A stretch of 33,475 bases of DNA from contig JAJZGX010000021.1 in the NCBI GenBank assembly GCA_021804825.1, forward strand, positions 1 to 33,475, written 5' to 3'. The notes beneath the pieces were generated by a model. That model did not search any database. It was not told where the DNA came from and worked only from the letters and a program-made list of their open reading frames with translations. Numbering within the stretch: position 1 is the first letter of the stretch; each line of letters begins with the position of its first letter. A program made the translations under genes and the position numbers. Origin of the DNA: Pseudomonadota bacterium (lineage in GTDB: Bacteria > Pseudomonadota > Alphaproteobacteria > Rhizobiales > Beijerinckiaceae). Of this stretch, positions 1-7,453 are shown one piece after another.

Positions 1-2
1 AG

Positions 3-107
3 GGCTATGTCGGCGAAGCCTGCCCGGAATGCGCCAATTTCACCATGGTGCGCAATGGCACCTGCCTGAAATGCGACACCTGCGGATCAACGACGGGGTG
101 CAGCTGA
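3..107 (+). CDS. nrdJ: Vitamin B12-dependent ribonucleotide reductase, C-terminal end (partial)
   Basis: The frame starting at base 3 is open from the window edge and ends in TGA at 105-107. It encodes the last 34 residues of a class II, adenosylcobalamin-dependent ribonucleotide reductase, which makes deoxyribonucleotides in the cytoplasm. The visible tail has paired cysteines (CPEC, then CLKCDTC) and ends in TTGCS. This is the cysteine-rich, zinc-binding C-terminus typical of the long NrdJ/NrdZ proteins, whose terminal cysteines are thought to re-reduce the active site. Everything upstream lies outside the window, so catalytic residues cannot be checked. Confidence 0.85.
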   Translation, partial: GYVGEACPECANFTMVRNGTCLKCDTCGSTTGCS

Positions 108-124
108 GGGGGAGATCCCTCAGC
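103..124 (+). terminator. Hairpin overlapping the nrdJ stop codon
   Basis: GCTGAGGG pairs perfectly with CCCTCAGC across a 6-nt loop, and the nrdJ TGA lies in the left arm. There is no T-run after it, so it is a candidate transcript-end hairpin rather than a textbook intrinsic terminator. A 12-bp palindrome (CAGCGGCCGCTG, 121-132) overlaps its right edge. Confidence 0.4.
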
Positions 125-147
125 GGCCGCTGACCTGCGCAGATGGT

Positions 148-167
148 GGTTGCTTGAAAAAGCAACC
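148..167. terminator. Perfect 8-bp hairpin with GAAA loop between convergent genes
   Basis: GGTTGCTT and AAGCAACC form a perfect stem closed by a GAAA tetraloop. It lies between the converging 3' ends of nrdJ and ada, so it may stabilise or end either transcript. No T-run follows on either side. The rest of 168-306 shows only a short direct repeat (GAGGCTCC twice, about 175-190) and no convincing gene. Confidence 0.4.
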
Positions 168-306
168 TCATGGCGAGGCTCCGAGGCTCCGACGCAAGGC
201 GGCGTTGTCGTGCTGTTGCTGCTGGCCTGGCTTGCGATTGCCATGACAAAGGTCAGGGCCTGCTGGCGCCGCATGTTTGATGTCATTGCAATAGGTTAGC
301 GGCCCC

Positions 307-1167
307 TCACATGCACTGGCCGGCTTCCCAGCCGAGCATGGCCTGTTTGCGGGTCAGGCCCCAATGGTAGCCGGTGAGCGCGCCGGTCTGGCCGAGCACA
401 CGGTGGCACGGCACGACAAAGCTGATCGGGTTGCGCCCGATGGCAGCGCCAACGGCACGGGCGGCCCTCGGGCGGGCAATCTTGCTGGCGATGCGGCCAT
501 AGGTGGTCGCCTGCCCCATCGGGATGGTGAGCAAGGTCTCCCAGACGCTGACTTCAAAATCCGTGCCGATCAGCACCACGCGCAGCGGGGTTTCGGCCTG
601 CCAGAGTTCAGGTTGGAACGCGCGGCCTGCATAGGGCGCGGTCAGATCCTGATCTTCCACCAACCGGGCCGCGGGCCAGCGCGCCTGCATATCGGCGAGG
701 CCATGCTGACGCGCGCCATCGACGAAGCCCAAGCCCGCCATGCCGCGCGCGGTTGCCACCACCAGCGCCTCGCCGAAGGGTGAGGGATGGAAACCATAGG
801 ACAGCACCAGCCCTTCTCCGCCCTTGCGAAATTCATGCGGCGACAGCGCCTCATGCGTGACAAACAGATCGTGCAGGCGCGAGGGGCCGGAAAGGCCGAG
901 TTCGAGACTGGCATCAAACAGGTTGGCGCCGTCGCGGAGCAGTTTGCGTGCATGATCAAGGGTCAGGGCCGCCAGAAAATCCTTCGGGCTAAGCCCGGCC
1001 CAGCGCCGAAACACATCGTGAAATTGCTTGGGTGTCAGGCCGACATGGGCGGCAATGGTTTCAATGTCGGGATGCGCACGCCATTTCTGGCTCATAAAGG
1101 CGATGGCATCCCGCACGCGGGAATAATCATCGTCGCCGACGTCATTCATTGTGCGGGCCAGCATCAT
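307..1167 (-). CDS. ada: Ada-type AraC regulator / methylated-DNA--protein-cysteine methyltransferase
   Basis: About 286 residues. An AraC-type helix-turn-helix domain fills roughly the first 110 residues. The rest is an O6-alkylguanine-DNA methyltransferase domain with the active-site motif PCHRV (Cys about 254). The alkyl group on guanine-O6 is transferred irreversibly to that cysteine, and the HTH suggests control of its own repair genes. The N-terminal zinc phosphotriester-repair domain of E. coli Ada is absent, as in many alphaproteobacterial versions. The longest frame begins at 1176, but its AAGG lies directly against that ATG. The ATGATGCTG at 1167 is better spaced and is shared by the second ada copy at 4076, so 1167 is preferred. 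Its 5' part (982-1132) is duplicated at 3894-4044. The first codons differ from that remnant, so this gene appears to be a mosaic of a resident body and an incoming 5' end. Confidence 0.9.
   Translation of the reverse strand: MMLARTMNDVGDDDYSRVRDAIAFMSQKWRAHPDIETIAAHVGLTPKQFHDVFRRWAGLSPKDFLAALTLDHARKLLRDGANLFDASLELGLSGPSRLHDLFVTHEALSPHEFRKGGEGLVLSYGFHPSPFGEALVVATARGMAGLGFVDGARQHGLADMQARWPAARLVEDQDLTAPYAGRAFQPELWQAETPLRVVLIGTDFEVSVWETLLTIPMGQATTYGRIASKIARPRAARAVGAAIGRNPISFVVPCHRVLGQTGALTGYHWGLTRKQAMLGWEAGQCM
982..1132. repeat. Left copy of 151-bp direct repeat (inside ada)
   Basis: Base-by-base comparison with 3894-4044 shows a single mismatch (A991 versus G3903) at a constant offset of 2,912 bp. 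Beyond 1132 the two copies remain recognisably homologous but diverge, for example around the start codon and the stretch ending near 1237 and 4143. Left of 982 there is no similarity, because the right copy begins abruptly there. Confidence 0.95.
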
Positions 1168-1422
1168 CGGAGCCATCCTTGTGGTTTTGAAGGGTCTTCA
1201 TCATGGCGCAAGTGCCAAGGCCGCGCCACCCGATTCCACCGCGCTTTGCTGCAACCCCCTTGAGCCGTTTGCCGCTCATCGCTGACTGAAACAGCGAACG
1301 ATCCGAGGCTCCTCCACATTGCGCAAATTGTCGCCCAGAACGTGCGCCACGCGCGCTGACTTCGAATTTCAGAAGCCCACCGGCACATTGTGACGTTCGC
1401 TTATCTATATAACCTATTCTCA

Positions 1423-1494
1423 TCTTTCATTTTTTTTCAGTACTATCATTTCATTTTTTTTCAGTACTATCATTTCATTTTTTTTCAGTACTAT
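1423..1494. repeat. Three tandem 24-bp T-rich repeats
   Basis: Units 1423-1446, 1447-1470 and 1471-1494. Each consists of an ATTTCA-like start, eight T residues, then CAGTACTAT. Units 2 and 3 are identical and unit 1 differs only at its first two bases. The tract lies about 190 bp upstream of the 31-codon peptide gene, in a 507-bp stretch without genes. A 24-bp period is a little over two helical turns, so repeated protein-binding sites or bent DNA are plausible. Slippage-prone repeat number is also possible. Confidence 0.9.
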
Positions 1495-1497
1495 CAC

Positions 1498-1683
1498 ATA
1501 TATCACGTTTATGCGACAGTTTATATGTCTACTGTATGATAGTTTTTTATGTTGACAGCTTTCCAACATTCCACATTTTGCATTTGACACTCGCACGTTT
1601 CTTTCTTACCGTCAGTTTGTGACTTGACGCATTCGACACTTGCAGGCCACATTGGACCATCACTGACACTTTGGAGAATTATT
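1498..1683 (+). promoter_or_regulatory. Leader region of the peptide cassette with imperfect repeats
   Basis: This AT-rich stretch contains two TTGACA boxes (1552-1557 and 1584-1589), a TATGAT box at 1535-1540, and an imperfect 15-bp direct repeat (CATTTGACACTCGCA at 1581-1595 and CATTCGACACTTGCA at 1630-1644, 13 of 15 identical). None of the boxes pairs convincingly with a partner, so the exact promoter is unresolved. It ends in a clear ribosome-binding site, GGAG at 1673-1676. Confidence 0.3.
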
Positions 1684-1779
1684 ATGCACCATCAAAAACT
1701 TAACACCATATTTGAGGGTGGAACATGGACTGGCGGGCCTCCTGGAACCATCGGCGGCGGCAAGACCTGGGGATTTTGA
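1684..1779 (+). CDS. 31-residue Gly/Trp-rich small peptide (unannotated)
   Basis: ATG at 1684, TGA at 1777-1779, with GGAG seven bases upstream of the start, which is ideal spacing. The peptide begins MHHQKLN and continues with a Gly-rich, Trp-containing part including GGTWTGGPPG and the C-terminus GGGKTWGF. TW followed by glycine or G-rich sequence occurs twice. It contains no cysteine, no membrane segment and no signal peptide. The biased composition and good ribosome-binding site argue that it is translated despite its size. Downstream on the same strand are a lipoprotein hydrolase (107 bp later) and an acyltransferase-like gene. A ribosomally made peptide that is modified, for instance acylated, by its neighbours is one reading. 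A leader or signalling peptide is another. No known family is recognised and no standard modification enzyme (radical SAM, YcaO, lanthionine synthetase) is present. Confidence 0.55.
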   Translation: MHHQKLNTIFEGGTWTGGPPGTIGGGKTWGF

Positions 1780-1886
1780 CATACGGTTGTAATTTTTAGA
1801 TTCGACTGTTATTTCAATAGTCCTGCTCTAAAGATATTGCATCAACTACATGAATTTTTCTTTTTTTCGATTCGGAGTTTGTCGTA

Positions 1887-2963
1887 TTGCGATTATTCAA
1901 GCAGGCTCCAACCTCTTCGCCGCTGACCCGGCGAGGAGGCGTTCGACACGCCAGAACTTTCCCTGGCACCAAAAGTTGCTGCCTATACGCGCGCCTCCTG
2001 GCATTTTTCTGGCTACCCCCGTTATTTGCTTTGTCTGGCTGTGCAGTTGTCGACACCGGGATGCAATTTGCCTCGGCTGCGGGGACCGTATTGGCGCATC
2101 CGTCAAAACGATTCAAATTTACGTTGCGCGATGACGAAGTGAGGGACGCTTACGAATTTGTCACTGACGACGGTCTTGGGCAGGACGGAACAATTGTGTT
2201 TCTGACTGGTAGTGGCTGTCGCAGCGACGCCTATTTGCGGGTCTGGTTCAAAAGATTGCAAGGTAGCTATCGTATTTTGGCCATGAACAAAATCGGCGTC
2301 GATCCAAGCGCAATTGGGGATCACAATTGTTCTGATGAGTATGTCCGGAATTTTCGGGTGGGACGAGAGATTGACGAGCAGGCGCAATTTGCTCGAGCGA
2401 TGTTTCAGAAATATCCTTCACGGGCCAATATTTTATTTGGAGTCTCCGAGGGCGGTTGGGTAGCGCCTTCCATCGCGGCGCAAACGCCTGCTGCAAATGA
2501 TGTCGTGTTGTTTTCCTCGGGGGATGGAAAGTATTTTGATACGATGAGTTTGCGGCATTATTCCAATGCCGCCGACAAAGCGCATTGGATGGCCCGCCTC
2601 AATGCGCTATTGACGCGAACCGACACGCAGGCTCGTGCCTTTCCACATTCCTATCCAGATTTTTCTGTCGGCTGGTTCCAGGACATGGCCGGGCTTTCAG
2701 GCTTGCAACCCATCAAGTCATTGCATGTGCGTGTGCTCATGGCACAAGGCGGCAAAGATGAAACAGTGCCCGTTGCATCTGCACATGAAGCCTGTTCAAT
2801 CCTGACCAAAACCAAGAATGATGTCAGTTATTTTTTTGAACCAAGCGGCAATCACGGAATGCAAACTCCTGACGGACAATCCGGCTCGCGCTTTTTTCAC
2901 GCCTTTCGTCAGTGGAGCATGGGTAAACCCGACGCCCATTTGTCCAAAACCTGTCCCTATTAG
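1887..2963 (+). CDS. Predicted lipoprotein with alpha/beta-hydrolase fold
   Basis: 358 residues from a TTG start that has GGAG at 1874-1877, nine bases upstream. No in-frame ATG or GTG lies before the signal sequence. The N-terminus has an unusually long basic region, then a hydrophobic stretch ending LSGC (Cys52), a lipobox, so the mature protein is probably lipid-anchored outside the inner membrane. The hydrolase triad is visible: GVSEG (Ser187), GGKDE (Asp291) and GNHG (His323). The substrate is unknown; family members include esterases, thioesterases and peptidases. The gene is AT-rich compared with its surroundings and ends two bases before the next gene, suggesting coupled translation. 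The role with the adjacent peptide and acyltransferase is inference, possibly deacylation or hydrolysis of a product. Confidence 0.75.
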   Translation: MRLFKQAPTSSPLTRRGGVRHARTFPGTKSCCLYARLLAFFWLPPLFALSGCAVVDTGMQFASAAGTVLAHPSKRFKFTLRDDEVRDAYEFVTDDGLGQDGTIVFLTGSGCRSDAYLRVWFKRLQGSYRILAMNKIGVDPSAIGDHNCSDEYVRNFRVGREIDEQAQFARAMFQKYPSRANILFGVSEGGWVAPSIAAQTPAANDVVLFSSGDGKYFDTMSLRHYSNAADKAHWMARLNALLTRTDTQARAFPHSYPDFSVGWFQDMAGLSGLQPIKSLHVRVLMAQGGKDETVPVASAHEACSILTKTKNDVSYFFEPSGNHGMQTPDGQSGSRFFHAFRQWSMGKPDAHLSKTCPY

Positions 2964-2965
2964 CC

Positions 2966-3892
2966 ATGGTCATGACACTGCAACAGCGCGATGCAATTGG
3001 CGTGTTTTGCGCTGAATTCGCTGCCAATTTCGGCTACGTAATGCGACGCAAGCTCATGGCTTTTGCTGGGCATGCAATCGGTAGTGGTCGTATGCCGCTT
3101 ACCTCATGTGATAAATTTATTTGTGATTGCGTAGGGTTCATTGAACAATCCCTCGGCGTTAATGAACAATCTGCAAAATATATATATTATCAGGCTCGAA
3201 ATCATCTCTACAGCATTACTGCTGACGCGAGATCGATAAGACAATTTTTATCGAATAGCTCGTTTACAGATCTTACTCATTTTTCATGTGTTTCCCCAAG
3301 AATGTTGTCAGAAATGCGAAAACATGAAGGGCCCATAATAATTGCAACATTTCATTGCGCTTCGTATTATTTAGCCTTAGGATATGTTTCGTCTGTACTG
3401 CTACCCGGGCGTGGTGTCGCGTTTATAAAAGCTCACCCTCCAAGTCCTTCCGAAAAACTATTGATCGAGGCTCTTAAAAAAAATGGCATTGATGCCAAAT
3501 TTGTAATCCTCACGGAAAGCAAACAATTAAACAGGCGTTTTTTCAAATCAATTAAATCAGAAAATAGAATTTTGTTTCATATGTGCGATACTTTGCCAAA
3601 TGCTGGAAGATCTCTAAAAGTTCGATGGCTTGGATCGGAACACAATATCTCCTGTGGAATTGTAGATTTGTCACTTCTTATTGATGCTCCAATATTTACC
3701 ATGTTATACCAATCTACATCTACAAGGGACATAGTTAGAATTAGCGATATGTTCTTGCCACAACAGGTTGCGCACGACCGGCATGACGTGTTGCAAAGAA
3801 TTTGCGATGCCGGCGAGGCGCAAATCCGCAGTTGCCCTGAGCAATGGCAGCTGTGGCATGACTGGAGTTATATCAATTCTACGTCTGCCTGA
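2966..3892 (+). CDS. LpxL/HtrB-like acyltransferase homologue, function unknown
   Basis: 308 residues, starting two bases after the hydrolase stop (a second ATG lies at 2972). The layout resembles the lipid A late-acyltransferase superfamily: a hydrophobic IIIATFH segment near residue 130, a basic central part, ILFHMCD and KVRWLG segments, then a hydrophobic GIVDLSLLIDAPIF segment. LpxL enzymes carry an HX4D/E catalytic motif; here His130 is followed at the fifth place by Tyr135, so the usual acid is missing or displaced. No clear N-terminal membrane anchor is seen. Either the protein is a divergent transferase acting on a different acceptor, such as a peptide, or it is not catalytic in the usual way. 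Its stop codon (3890-3892) lies one base before the right ada repeat, so the C-terminus may have been cut at the junction. The family assignment is a weak match made by eye. Confidence 0.5.
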   Translation: MVMTLQQRDAIGVFCAEFAANFGYVMRRKLMAFAGHAIGSGRMPLTSCDKFICDCVGFIEQSLGVNEQSAKYIYYQARNHLYSITADARSIRQFLSNSSFTDLTHFSCVSPRMLSEMRKHEGPIIIATFHCASYYLALGYVSSVLLPGRGVAFIKAHPPSPSEKLLIEALKKNGIDAKFVILTESKQLNRRFFKSIKSENRILFHMCDTLPNAGRSLKVRWLGSEHNISCGIVDLSLLIDAPIFTMLYQSTSTRDIVRISDMFLPQQVAHDRHDVLQRICDAGEAQIRSCPEQWQLWHDWSYINSTSA

Positions 3893-3893
3893 A

Positions 3894-4044
3894 CTTCGGG
3901 CTGAGCCCGGCCCAGCGCCGAAACACATCGTGAAATTGCTTGGGTGTCAGGCCGACATGGGCGGCAATGGTTTCAATGTCGGGATGCGCACGCCATTTCT
4001 GGCTCATAAAGGCGATGGCATCCCGCACGCGGGAATAATCATCG
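3894..4044. repeat. Right copy of 151-bp direct repeat (ada remnant)
   Basis: Near-identical copy of 982-1132 with one mismatch at 3903. Its left edge is a sharp junction: the acyltransferase stop codon ends at 3892 and ada sequence begins at 3894. Confidence 0.95.
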
Positions 4045-4076
4045 CAGGACTGCGCGTTCACGCGGGTCAGCATCAT
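3894..4076 (-). pseudogene. Truncated ada 5' end left beside the insertion
   Basis: ATG at 4076 opens a frame whose first codons read MMLTRVNAQSCDDYSRV and then match the intact Ada through the HTH region up to WAGLSP, about 60 residues. It then runs into cassette sequence and stops at 3879. It keeps the start and upstream region next to the DUF2244 gene. The methyltransferase domain and its cysteine are lost. The first dozen residues differ from the intact gene while the following 50 codons are virtually identical at DNA level, as expected if two alleles recombined inside the gene. Confidence 0.85.
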
Positions 4077-4144
4077 GGGTCTCCATCCAACCTTGTGGCG
4101 CCAGCATGGGGCAATCTGACGCCGCAGGCCACCCGATTTCGCCC

Positions 4145-4654
4145 CTAATTATAGCGGATACCGCGCCGCGCTTCATGCAGAGCCCGCGAAAAATCGCGGG
4201 CAAAATCGGCGCGTTGCGCCGGGCCGAGATCGCCCGCGACTTGCACTTCGCGCCCCCGTGAGGCGAAGGCCAGCCGCATGATGCCATAATCTTCGTGTTC
4301 AACCCGCGTCAGGCGCACCCAGGCGGGGTTGAATTGCCAGGCGCGGCGTTGGCCTTTGGCCGAAACCTTGACAAAATCCAGCGCCAACGGCGTCAGGCGC
4401 ACGTCTTCATAGGCCCGCGCCGCGATGAAATTGGCCCGGAACGCCAGATAGACCAGCAGCACATCAAGGCCCATGAAACCGATGATCGGCCAGGCGCCGA
4501 TCAGCCAGAAGGGCAAGGTCACGAACACCCCGGCGGCGGCAACGCACCACATCAAGGTGCGAAACTGCCGCGCATTGAGCGAGCGATGCGGGCGCAGCCG
4601 CACTTCAAAGAGCGGCAAGGCGCTTGTTGTGGGGTGGTCAGAAAAATCGTCCAA
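4145..4654 (-). CDS. DUF2244 family membrane protein
   Basis: 169 residues. The N-terminal third carries a basic stretch (RPHRSLNARQFRTL) and two adjacent membrane helices (about residues 35-75, including LIGAWPIIGFMGLDVLLVYLAF in that region), followed by a soluble C-terminal domain with WVRL and RGREVQVAG segments. Size and layout match the DUF2244 proteins common in alphaproteobacteria. The function is unknown; it is probably an inner-membrane protein. The gene lies just upstream of the truncated ada copy on the same strand, so the two were probably co-transcribed before the cassette arrived. Confidence 0.8.
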   Translation of the reverse strand: MDDFSDHPTTSALPLFEVRLRPHRSLNARQFRTLMWCVAAAGVFVTLPFWLIGAWPIIGFMGLDVLLVYLAFRANFIAARAYEDVRLTPLALDFVKVSAKGQRRAWQFNPAWVRLTRVEHEDYGIMRLAFASRGREVQVAGDLGPAQRADFARDFSRALHEARRGIRYN

Positions 4655-4866
4655 GCGCTTTCCTCAGATGTCAGCCAAGAGTGTGGCTTGTTTTCAAGGC
4701 CAGATCAACAGCAATACCGGGGCATTGATCGCGCGCCAATGCGGCGAAATTGCACGCCTCGCGCCTTCGGTCGGCGCGGGCCGCCCTTGACCTTCCGCCC
4801 CTTGCCGGATGACAATCACACCAAGCAAATGGTGGATGGGAGAGACCGGATCGGCTGGTGCGATGA

Positions 4867-4884
4867 GCCTCGCCAAAACGAGGC
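4867..4884 (+). other. Hairpin in the 300-bp leader of the acyl-CoA ligase gene
   Basis: GCCTCG and CGAGGC pair across a six-base CCAAAA loop, about 70 bases before the ligase start. The remaining 4655-4954 holds no gene. A nearby GGGAGAGACC segment superficially recalls a glycine riboswitch, but the conserved core is lacking. The hairpin may influence transcription or translation of the downstream gene; nothing more can be said. Confidence 0.25.
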
Positions 4885-4954
4885 AACGATTGCCATGGAG
4901 ATGGTTCCTATCTATACCAACGAGAAAATAATACACAGCGAGGAGAGAGACGCT

Positions 4955-6583
4955 ATGCAAGGATTGATGCAGGAATGGCCGCTGCTGCTCCACAAGATCA
5001 TTGATCATGCCGCCCGCCAGCACGGGTCGCGCGAGGTGGTGACACGCTCGGTGGCCGGGCCGATCACCCGCACAACCTATGGCGCCATCCGGCAGCGGAC
5101 CTTGCGGATCGCCAAGATGCTCGCCAAAAATGACATCAAGCTCGGTGACAGGGTGGCAACGCTGGCGTGGAACACGGACAGGCACCTTGAAGTCTGGTAT
5201 GGCATCTGCGGTCTCGGTGCCATCAGCCACACCATCAACCCGCGGTTGTTCCCCGAACAGATCGCCTGGATCGTCAACCACGCGGAAGACCGGCTGATGT
5301 TTCTCGACACCACCTTTGTGCCGCTGATGGAAAAGCTCGCCGCACATGTTCCGACGATCGAGCGCTATGTGGTGCTGACTGATGCGGCCAATATGCCGCA
5401 AACCAGCCTGCGCAATGCTGTTGCCTATGAGGAATGGCTGAAGGAAGCCGACGAGGATTTCGTCTGGCCGGAATTTGATGAGCGCACGGCGGCCGGTCTT
5501 TGCTACACCTCCGGCACCACCGGCAACCCGAAAGGCGTGCTGTATTCGCACCGCTCGAACACGCTGCACGCCATGACCGCGACCTCCAGCGATGGCCTGA
5601 TGATCGACTATCGCGACTCGGTGCTCCCGATCGTGCCGCTGTTTCACGCCAATGCCTGGGGCCTTGCCCATGCCGCGCCGATGCGCGGTGCCAAGCTGGT
5701 GATGCCCGGCCCCAAGCTGGATGGTGCCTCGGTTTATGAGTTGCTGGAAGCGGAAAACGTCACCATGACGGCGGGTGTGCCGACCGTGTGGATGATGCTG
5801 CTCGATCATCTGCGCCGCAATAATCTGAAATTTTCAACTTTGCAGCGGCTTGGCGTCGGCGGCTCGGCTTTCCCCGAGGCGCTGATTCGTGAATTTGAAG
5901 AAAACTACGGCGTTGATGTGCGCCACGCCTGGGGCATGACGGAGATGAGCCCGGTCGGTTCGACCGGCACCATCAAGACCACGCTCGGTGAGTTGACGCA
6001 TGATCAGACCATGGCGCTCAAGGCCAAACAGGGCTGGGCGCTCTATGGCATCGAGATGAAAATCACCGATGACGAGGGTCGCAAAAAGCCCTGGGACGGT
6101 CATGCTTTCGGGCGACTCAAGGTCAGAGGCTTTGCCACCGCCTCGGCCTATTTCCGTGGTGATGGCGGCAACATTCTTGATGATGAAGGATTTTTCGACA
6201 CAGGCGATGTCGCGACCATCGACCCCCATGGCTATATGCAAATCACTGATCGCGCCAAGGATGTCATCAAATCGGGCGGCGAGTGGATATCGTCGGTCGA
6301 TCTTGAAAACATTGCCGTCGGCCATCCTGATATTGCGGAAGCTGCGGTCATTGGCGTCGCGCATCCGAAATGGGATGAACGTCCGCTGCTGATCGTCGTG
6401 CCAAAGGAGGGCAAGGTGCCACAGCGTGAGGATGTGATCGAATTTTTGCGCGCCCGCACCGCCAAATTCTGGGTGCCCGACGATATGCAATTGATCAGCG
6501 AAATCCCGCATACGGCCACAGGCAAGATCAACAAGCTGAAGCTGCGCGAGATTTTCAAGGACTACAAGCTGCCGGAGGCGTGA
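4955..6583 (+). CDS. Medium/long-chain fatty acyl-CoA ligase (AMP-forming)
   Basis: 542 residues, of the ANL adenylating superfamily. It activates a carboxylic acid with ATP and CoA through an acyl-AMP intermediate in the cytoplasm. Visible motifs are the P-loop YTSGTTGNPKGV, the aromatic/acid motif WGMTEMSP, the hinge DRAKDVIKSGGEWIS and the C-terminal catalytic lysine in TATGKINK. The overall form (MQGLMQEWPLLLHKIIDHA start, about 540 residues) matches AlkK/DmdB-like medium-chain ligases; the exact acid cannot be told. The frame is open far upstream to 4295, but that part overlaps DUF2244 antisense. ATG 4955 follows an AGGAGAG box and yields the family length. The gene precedes acetoacetate decarboxylase on the same strand by 114 bp. 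Confidence 0.9.
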   Translation: MQGLMQEWPLLLHKIIDHAARQHGSREVVTRSVAGPITRTTYGAIRQRTLRIAKMLAKNDIKLGDRVATLAWNTDRHLEVWYGICGLGAISHTINPRLFPEQIAWIVNHAEDRLMFLDTTFVPLMEKLAAHVPTIERYVVLTDAANMPQTSLRNAVAYEEWLKEADEDFVWPEFDERTAAGLCYTSGTTGNPKGVLYSHRSNTLHAMTATSSDGLMIDYRDSVLPIVPLFHANAWGLAHAAPMRGAKLVMPGPKLDGASVYELLEAENVTMTAGVPTVWMMLLDHLRRNNLKFSTLQRLGVGGSAFPEALIREFEENYGVDVRHAWGMTEMSPVGSTGTIKTTLGELTHDQTMALKAKQGWALYGIEMKITDDEGRKKPWDGHAFGRLKVRGFATASAYFRGDGGNILDDEGFFDTGDVATIDPHGYMQITDRAKDVIKSGGEWISSVDLENIAVGHPDIAEAAVIGVAHPKWDERPLLIVVPKEGKVPQREDVIEFLRARTAKFWVPDDMQLISEIPHTATGKINKLKLREIFKDYKLPEA

Positions 6584-6697
6584 GGTGCGCCCCGGCGTGG
6601 AACCCGCGGCGCGATTGGCGCGGGCGCCACTACAGGTTGCTGCTTGCGTGCTGGGGGACTAGACTGGCTGCTCCTTCCTGAAGTGAGGTCAGCCAAG

Positions 6698-7453
6698 ATG
6701 AAGATCGACGATGTGCGGGCCAAGGCCTTTGCCATGCCGCTCACCAACCCCTCGTATCCGCCAGGCCCCTATCGTTTCTACAACCGCGAATATCTGATCA
6801 TCACCTATCGCACTGACATGGATGCGTTGCGAGCGGTGGTGCCGGAACCGCTGGAAGTGGTCGATCCGATCGTCAAATACGAGTTCATCCGCATGCCGGA
6901 TTCCACCGGCTTTGGCGATTATACCGAGACCGGGCAGGTCATTCCGGTACGGCTCAACGGTGTTGATGGCGGCTATGTGCATTCGATGTTTCTGGATGAT
7001 GATTCGCCCATCGCCGGGGGCCGCGAAATCTGGGGTTTTCCCAAAAAACTCGCCCGACCGAAGATCTCGCATGAGGGCGAATTCGTGCATGCGACGCTGC
7101 ATTATGGCGAGGCGCTGGTCGTCAATGCCACCGTTGGATACAAGCACAAGATCATCAGCGACACCGGCCCGCTGCTGAAGGCGATGCTGGCGCCGAGCTT
7201 CCTGATGAAAATCATTCCGCATGTCGATGGCAGCGTGCGCATTTGCGAATTGGTGCGCTATTACCTTGAAGACGTGCAGATCAAAGGGGCCTGGACGAGC
7301 CCGGCGGCGCTGGAATTGCACGCGCATGTCATGGCCGATGTAGCGCGCCTGCCGGTGCGCGAGGTGGTTTCAGCCGTGCACTATATCGCCGATCTGACGC
7401 TCGGCCTCGGGGAAGTCGCCTTTGATTATCTGGCACCCCCGCCTAAACCCTGA
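6698..7453 (+). CDS. adc: Acetoacetate decarboxylase
   Basis: 251 residues. It converts acetoacetate to acetone and CO2 through a Schiff base on lysine. The motif [12 protein letters not shown] places Lys116/117 one residue from Lys115/116 of the clostridial enzyme. Arg30 and Glu77 fit its Arg29 and Glu76 with the same shift, so the active site looks intact. ATG 6698 has GAGG nine bases upstream and gives the usual length; the open frame extends back to 6644 without a better start. With the preceding acyl-CoA ligase it suggests ketone or short-acid metabolism. Some family members decarboxylate other beta-keto acids, so the substrate is inferred. Confidence 0.88.

Follow-up and report, generated by a model that had tools for sequence, protein, structure and literature searches.

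Organization of the ada locus and its insert

The window analysed here is a single contig of 33,475 bp from an assembly of 2.78 Mb in 163 contigs (G000). Its opening DNA matches nrdJ, the class II ribonucleotide reductase gene, of G002 (a genome of the same genus) at the 3' end of that gene; a minus-strand ada-like gene comes next (Table 1). The ada-like product contains an AraC-type HTH domain (PF12833, HTH_18; 9.5e-16) and an O6-alkylguanine methyltransferase domain (PF01035; 2.7e-31). When the protein was examined as a bifunctional Ada, the N-terminal Ada Zn-binding domain was not among its Pfam matches, and its NCBIfam Ada score was 138.6 bits against a cut-off of 345.

A sequence-only reading of this DNA had described a 151-bp segment of ada recurring with a unit length of 2,912 bp. 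Indeed, the two copies are identical at 150 of 151 positions, with one mismatch, and are spaced 2,912 bp apart. The block matches the whole 2.78-Mb assembly at two places, and a 28-nt probe taken from it occurs twice in the window and in none of 100 shuffles. As that reading had proposed, the left copy lies inside a complete ORF of 289 aa, and the right copy belongs to a truncated ORF (3879-4076, minus strand) that ends after 65 aa, 61 codons of which are ada. The claim of differing start regions also stands, since the start of the intact ada equals that of the right copy at only 52 of 100 sites, a stretch that is diverged yet still homologous (local score 65 against a shuffle maximum of 51, n=500). 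The claim that homology continues beyond the block on both sides holds on the start side and fails on the other, where the right copy ends at 3893 and abuts the stop codon (3890-3892) of an acyltransferase-like ORF.

The DNA between the copies is AT-rich, as had been noted, with a GC content of 46.1% (1244-3893) compared with 60.6% at 4045-33475. It carries genes that the earlier reading had not mentioned, namely those for a putative small peptide, a lipoprotein-like hydrolase and a distant LpxL-like protein, and we refer to it as the cassette. On the start side of the ada remnant lies a gene for an AMP-binding enzyme together with the DUF2244 gene. In agreement with the earlier reading, no integrase was found among the Pfam domains of the two long cassette ORFs; an integrase-borne element was considered and rejected, as these ORFs contain no integrase or transposase domain and the insert ends carry no inverted repeat. 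At 1100-4200, promoter-like sites numbered 7 against 4.5 in shuffles (sd 1.7), and terminator-like sites numbered 2 against 3.5 (sd 1.9). No Rfam family was found in window positions 1-7000. Table 1 includes comparisons with G002 and with G003, another species of the genus whose assembly is 73% complete and consists of 510 contigs.

Table 1 Features of the ada locus in the window.
Feature	Position	Strand	Basis
Intact ada-like gene (left copy) with cassette-type start	307..1176	-	ORF and Pfam
Left block copy, codons 15-65 of the intact ada	982..1132	-	Repeat comparison
Cassette-type ada start and upstream region	1133..1243	-	73.6% identity to G003 left start, 52% to right copy
Tandem array of a 24-nt unit in three exact copies (TTTCATTTTTTTTCAGTACTATCA), within AT-rich DNA upstream of the peptide	1425..1496	.	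Sequence
Putative 31-aa Gly-rich peptide with EGG (double-glycine-like) motif	1684..1779	+	Similar peptide in G003
Lipoprotein-like alpha/beta-hydrolase, TTG start	1887..2963	+	PF00326, 5.9e-6, over cut-off
Distant LpxL-like (Lip_A_acyltrans) protein	2966..3892	+	PF03279, E 0.06, below cut-off
Right block copy within the truncated ada remnant	3894..4044	-	Repeat comparison
Native-type ada start and intergenic region	4045..4145	-	78.4% identity to empty-site genome G002
DUF2244 gene, usual neighbour of ada	4145..4654	-	Pfam and named loci

Genes carried by the cassette

The hydrolase contains an LSGC sequence, which we take to be a lipobox, and GVSEGG, presumably its nucleophile motif. Matches to the hydrolase were found in 4 of 199 family genomes, our own included, with only G003 close, where the orthologue lies in pieces; in the order sample, 11 of 297 genomes, again including our own, gave matches. 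There was no match among viral contigs, and plasmids gave three distant ones (26.6-30.5% identity). A PDB sequence search with window protein P0002 returned one match at 0.067. In addition, an RNA hairpin is predicted in the first hydrolase codons (window 1912-1939), with a predicted counterpart in G003 (L006 2960-2987); their z values are -3.2 and -3.9, respectively, and the stems differ by one-sided changes that keep the pairing.

The acyltransferase-like gene was found neither at the G003 locus nor elsewhere in the G003 assembly. GC3 is 37% in this gene and 53% in the hydrolase gene, compared with 73.5-75.1% in ada, DUF2244 and the AMP-binding gene. This difference between the two long cassette genes hints that the acyltransferase-like gene perhaps has a history separate from that of the rest of the cassette.

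The putative peptide, encoded by the frame MHHQKLNTIFEGGTWTGGPPGTIGGGKTWGF inside a listed ORF, has a counterpart in G003. Over 24 comparable codons, 7 changed synonymously and 4 nonsynonymously, and the differences at the three codon positions number 2, 3 and 8 (p 0.035). This pattern weakly favours a real peptide, its start in G003 being an in-frame TTG that is ambiguous. The frame in the window is open from an upstream TTG (1624-1779), resembling the in-frame TTG in G003 (L006 2731), and the ATG region of the window is absent from G003. When E values up to 10 were allowed, the peptide had at least one match in 33 of 99 family genomes; the best were G000 itself (8.3e-18) and G003 (0.0083), followed by one at 0.0225, and we take the matches beyond these two genomes as chance. 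The sequence before the GG motif is short, KLNTIFEGG in the window and KLNIIFEGG in G003, unlike MKKLDTKELQQIVGG of G113, a more distant genome discussed below. Allowing up to 3 mismatches, the 24-nt repeat upstream of the peptide had no further match in the assembly.

In lipid A acyltransferases (LpxL/HtrB), HX4D/E is the catalytic motif. The acyltransferase-like protein of the window has HCASYY instead, and it reached 13.0 bits for PF03279, below the cut-off of 22.3. Matches to it were found in 3 of 199 family genomes and 2 of 297 genomes in the order sample, our own included in both, and none on plasmids or phages. PADLOC matched neither this protein nor the hydrolase. A PDB sequence search with window protein P0003 found nothing at E up to 1, the predicted structure of P0003 was poor (mean pLDDT 37), and a scan of the genome contigs with P0003 revealed no relative.

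In three outside genomes carrying relatives of this protein (G187, G113 and G402), the gene order is acyltransferase, HlyD and exporter. The relatives in G187 and G402 exceed the PF03279 cut-off and that in G113 gives no match; HX4D/E is likewise absent from G187 (HMGAYV) and G113 (HTGFFA). A scan of the G187 exporter detected a C39 domain, and to this exporter the G113 and G402 exporters are 49-52% identical, that region included. Double-glycine peptides lie alongside the operon in two of the three (G113 and G187), and none was found within the listed stretch of the G402 locus. Those in G113 and G187 are small and Cys/Lys-rich (L150 5415-6096 and L149 4387-4536, respectively). An alignment search at class level (E up to 1e-6) found acyltransferase relatives in 7 of 385 genomes including our own. 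The other six were tried as an extension of the operon pattern and rejected, with an exporter match at three of six loci (24-31%) and HlyD at none. Among the titles and abstract openings covered by our literature search, none concerned LpxL-like proteins together with double-glycine peptides.

The cassette resembles these operons, with LpxL-like, HlyD and C39-peptidase ABC exporter genes, in that it pairs a small peptide bearing a GG motif with a nearby, related acyltransferase-like protein. It differs in that the window protein is only ~17-21% identical to theirs, the cassette has no exporter and the genome has no C39 match (no PF03412 match in G000, in a search whose control was positive in 8 of 14 genomes). 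The only C39-peptidase domain found among the four genus genomes is in G002 (G002:C17:83119-83478, L172), a species without the cassette. One could imagine the cassette as a minimal, exporter-less system, in which a secreted Gly-rich peptide would be trimmed by the hydrolase and modified by the LpxL-like protein, the latter belonging to a subfamily without HX4D/E that elsewhere may act on double-glycine peptides; such a cassette would be kept at the ada start and lost or regained by homologous recombination between ada and its remnant. We regard this proposal as improbable, since the low identity, the missing exporter and C39 domain and the absence of HX4D/E count against a role like that of the exporter operons.

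The locus in related genomes

A search of the genus covered four genomes, this one included. The earlier reading had suggested looking for relatives with a single ada and no cassette, and G002 provides such an empty site, with the gene order nrdJ, ada, DUF2244 and AMP-binding. This supports the claim of an insertion between DUF2244 and ada that duplicated the 5' end of ada and changed the start of the intact gene. In G001, an ada at 68% protein identity adjoins DUF2244-like DNA, and neither long cassette ORF has a match. Among the best 80 of 580 named ada loci, 75 have a DUF2244 match, with a gap to ada of <300 bp in 70 and of 634-1,171 bp in 5, and none of the 80 has a match to the hydrolase or the acyltransferase-like protein.

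G003 carries an older version of the arrangement. On its contig C223 lie an ada whose start is cassette-type, the peptide region, interrupted by a 10-N gap, and the first part of the hydrolase gene. Contig C478 contains the end of the hydrolase gene, a decayed ada remnant of 78 bp, DUF2244 and the AMP-binding gene, and the two contigs presumably form a single locus. The right remnant in G003 has an internal deletion, and the two copies there agree at 64 of 78 sites. Beyond ada in G003 (L006 1-1310, C223), a repeat-rich helix-hairpin-helix-type protein is encoded instead of nrdJ, so that synteny is broken at that point. The cassette is thus carried by two genomes, that of the window and G003. 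The sequence-only reading had favoured a recent Campbell-type integration; G003, a relative with the same arrangement and diverged repeats, carries a worn version of it, an outcome that the earlier reading had itself named as evidence against recent integration, which is not supported. Nor was the start region freshly imported into this genome alone, as the cassette-type left start is common to G003 (73.6%).

The start and intergenic regions of the same side resemble each other across species (left to left, window and G003, 81/110, 73.6%; right to native, window and G002, 76/97, 78.4%), compared with 50-57% between left and right in four cross comparisons. Within the block, the left and right window copies match the G003 left copy at 130 and 131 of 151 sites, and the window copies match G002 at 120 and 121 of 150. 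The block thus groups by genome, next to starts of old lineages that group by side.

The hydrolase gene allowed the age of the cassette to be estimated. Between the window and G003, dS over the C-terminal 95 codons of the hydrolase is 0.51, and the flanking genes give widely spread values of 0.58 (AMP-binding), 0.78 (DUF2244) and 0.96 (ada body). Since the hydrolase value is near those of the flanking genes, the cassette appears to be about as old as the species split. Recombination between the two copies would leave a whole ada with a native start, so G002 may represent either a loss of the cassette or a site that was never filled.

Origin of the duplicated ada start

We favour an old insertion, shared with the ancestor of G003, whose flanking repeat was later refreshed by gene conversion, and assign it a probability of about 0.64. 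In the common ancestor, a low-GC cassette with the small peptide and the lipoprotein-like hydrolase would have come to lie between DUF2244 and ada and to be flanked by a second copy of a ~250-bp stretch reaching from the DUF2244 stop into ada (the 61 codons of the remnant). The acyltransferase-like gene may have been present early and lost in G003, or added later in the window lineage. The full-length ada would have taken the copy beside the cassette, hence its cassette-type start, and the copy beside DUF2244 would have been left as a dead 5' fragment that retains the native start. Later, in the window lineage, gene conversion probably replaced 151 bp of this remnant, with the intact gene as the most likely donor.

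The informative sites of the window ada point in this direction. In the block, 8 are shared with G002 and 16 with G003, and in the rest of the gene 86 and 29 (Fisher p 1.9e-4). As the block sites are G003-like, both window blocks look cassette-type, which suggests that the intact gene converted the remnant. The near-identity of the block would be better explained by later gene conversion than by recent integration. At coding positions 181-360 the counts are 8 (G002) and 10 (G003), and the lean towards G002 becomes clear only after ~360. This G002-like signal begins beyond the reach of the remnant, so that the repeat alone does not explain the ada mosaic. The presence of the cassette in only two genomes, the incomplete and fragmented G003 assembly with its locus split over two contigs, the missing nrdJ next to ada there and the wide spread of flanking dS values also weigh against our account.

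The mosaic is where a recent re-acquisition finds its footing. Homologous recombination would have brought the cassette of a G003-like donor into an empty ada of the window lineage, carried on linear DNA or on a circle that had been excised at the repeats (Campbell type), with the identical block marking the exchange. G002, the nearest genome in the flanks, is indeed empty, and the block and start of the window ada are G003-like, with no clear lean up to coding position ~360 and a G002-like remainder. With three species compared, conversion and recent re-acquisition by homologous exchange give the same signal. A loss of the cassette from G002 through recombination between the repeats, with retention of the native start there, would however account for much of the mosaic as well, and the dS of the cassette to G003 is similar to that of the flanking genes, so that no sampled donor is close. 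We consider this course of events unlikely, though it is the main rival of an old insertion.

Local duplication is less probable still. Here, the DUF2244-ada spacer and the 5' end of ada would have been duplicated, with the cassette captured at the break and no donor ada involved, and the left start would have diverged later. The homology spanning from about the DUF2244 stop into ada fits such an event, as do the two long ORFs free of integrase and transposase domains and the insert ends free of inverted repeats. The left and right starts, however, differ by ~48% and same-side starts by 22-26%, a larger divergence than one would expect if the duplication only slightly predated the species split. 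A second copy made by an assembly chimera of strain variants, conceivable for one contig of 163 with a repeat of short-read size and an acyltransferase-remnant junction seen in its exact form only here, is very improbable, because the left junction and a right junction of hydrolase, remnant and DUF2244 are present in G003, which was assembled separately, and the start of the remnant resembles that of G002.

For the old insertion that we prefer, one-sided recombination, a circle and duplication with capture are possible routes. The likeliest first step would be homology-facilitated illegitimate recombination (HFIR). Here, homologous recombination on one side and an illegitimate junction at the far end would need no circle to give ada a donor-like start, keep it whole and truncate the native copy to a remnant; a Campbell integration, which does involve a circle, would produce an identical arrangement. 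Some integrative elements insert at the 5' end of a gene, which then uses a start provided by the element. The locus is similar in that the host gene is whole with an element-borne start and a truncated start remains on the far side; it differs in having no integrase domain or short att core and a repeat of ~250 bp that includes the 151-bp homogenised block.

HFIR has been proposed to explain how orphan immunity arrays arose in Vibrio T6SS clusters (PMC5361080; PMC3240628). Both cases combine a single homologous anchor with a single non-homologous junction, and in both a remnant of the old gene has been displaced. In contrast to the Vibrio case, the window has a repair gene as its anchor, and the event is an old one whose first step is deduced from anatomy alone. 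Gene conversion and concerted evolution of bacterial paralogues (PMC6053082, PMC8022953) leave copies within a genome more alike than orthologues in other species. Correspondingly, the window contains a bounded tract more alike within the genome than between orthologues, as conversion would produce, but the tract is only 151 bp long and pairs a gene with its own remnant.

Near-identical flanking repeats would by themselves suggest a fresh integration, whereas the relative of the window genome indicates an old insertion with a refreshed repeat. The case also draws attention to a small peptide gene, and to the occurrence of LpxL-like proteins in C39-exporter operons elsewhere in the order.
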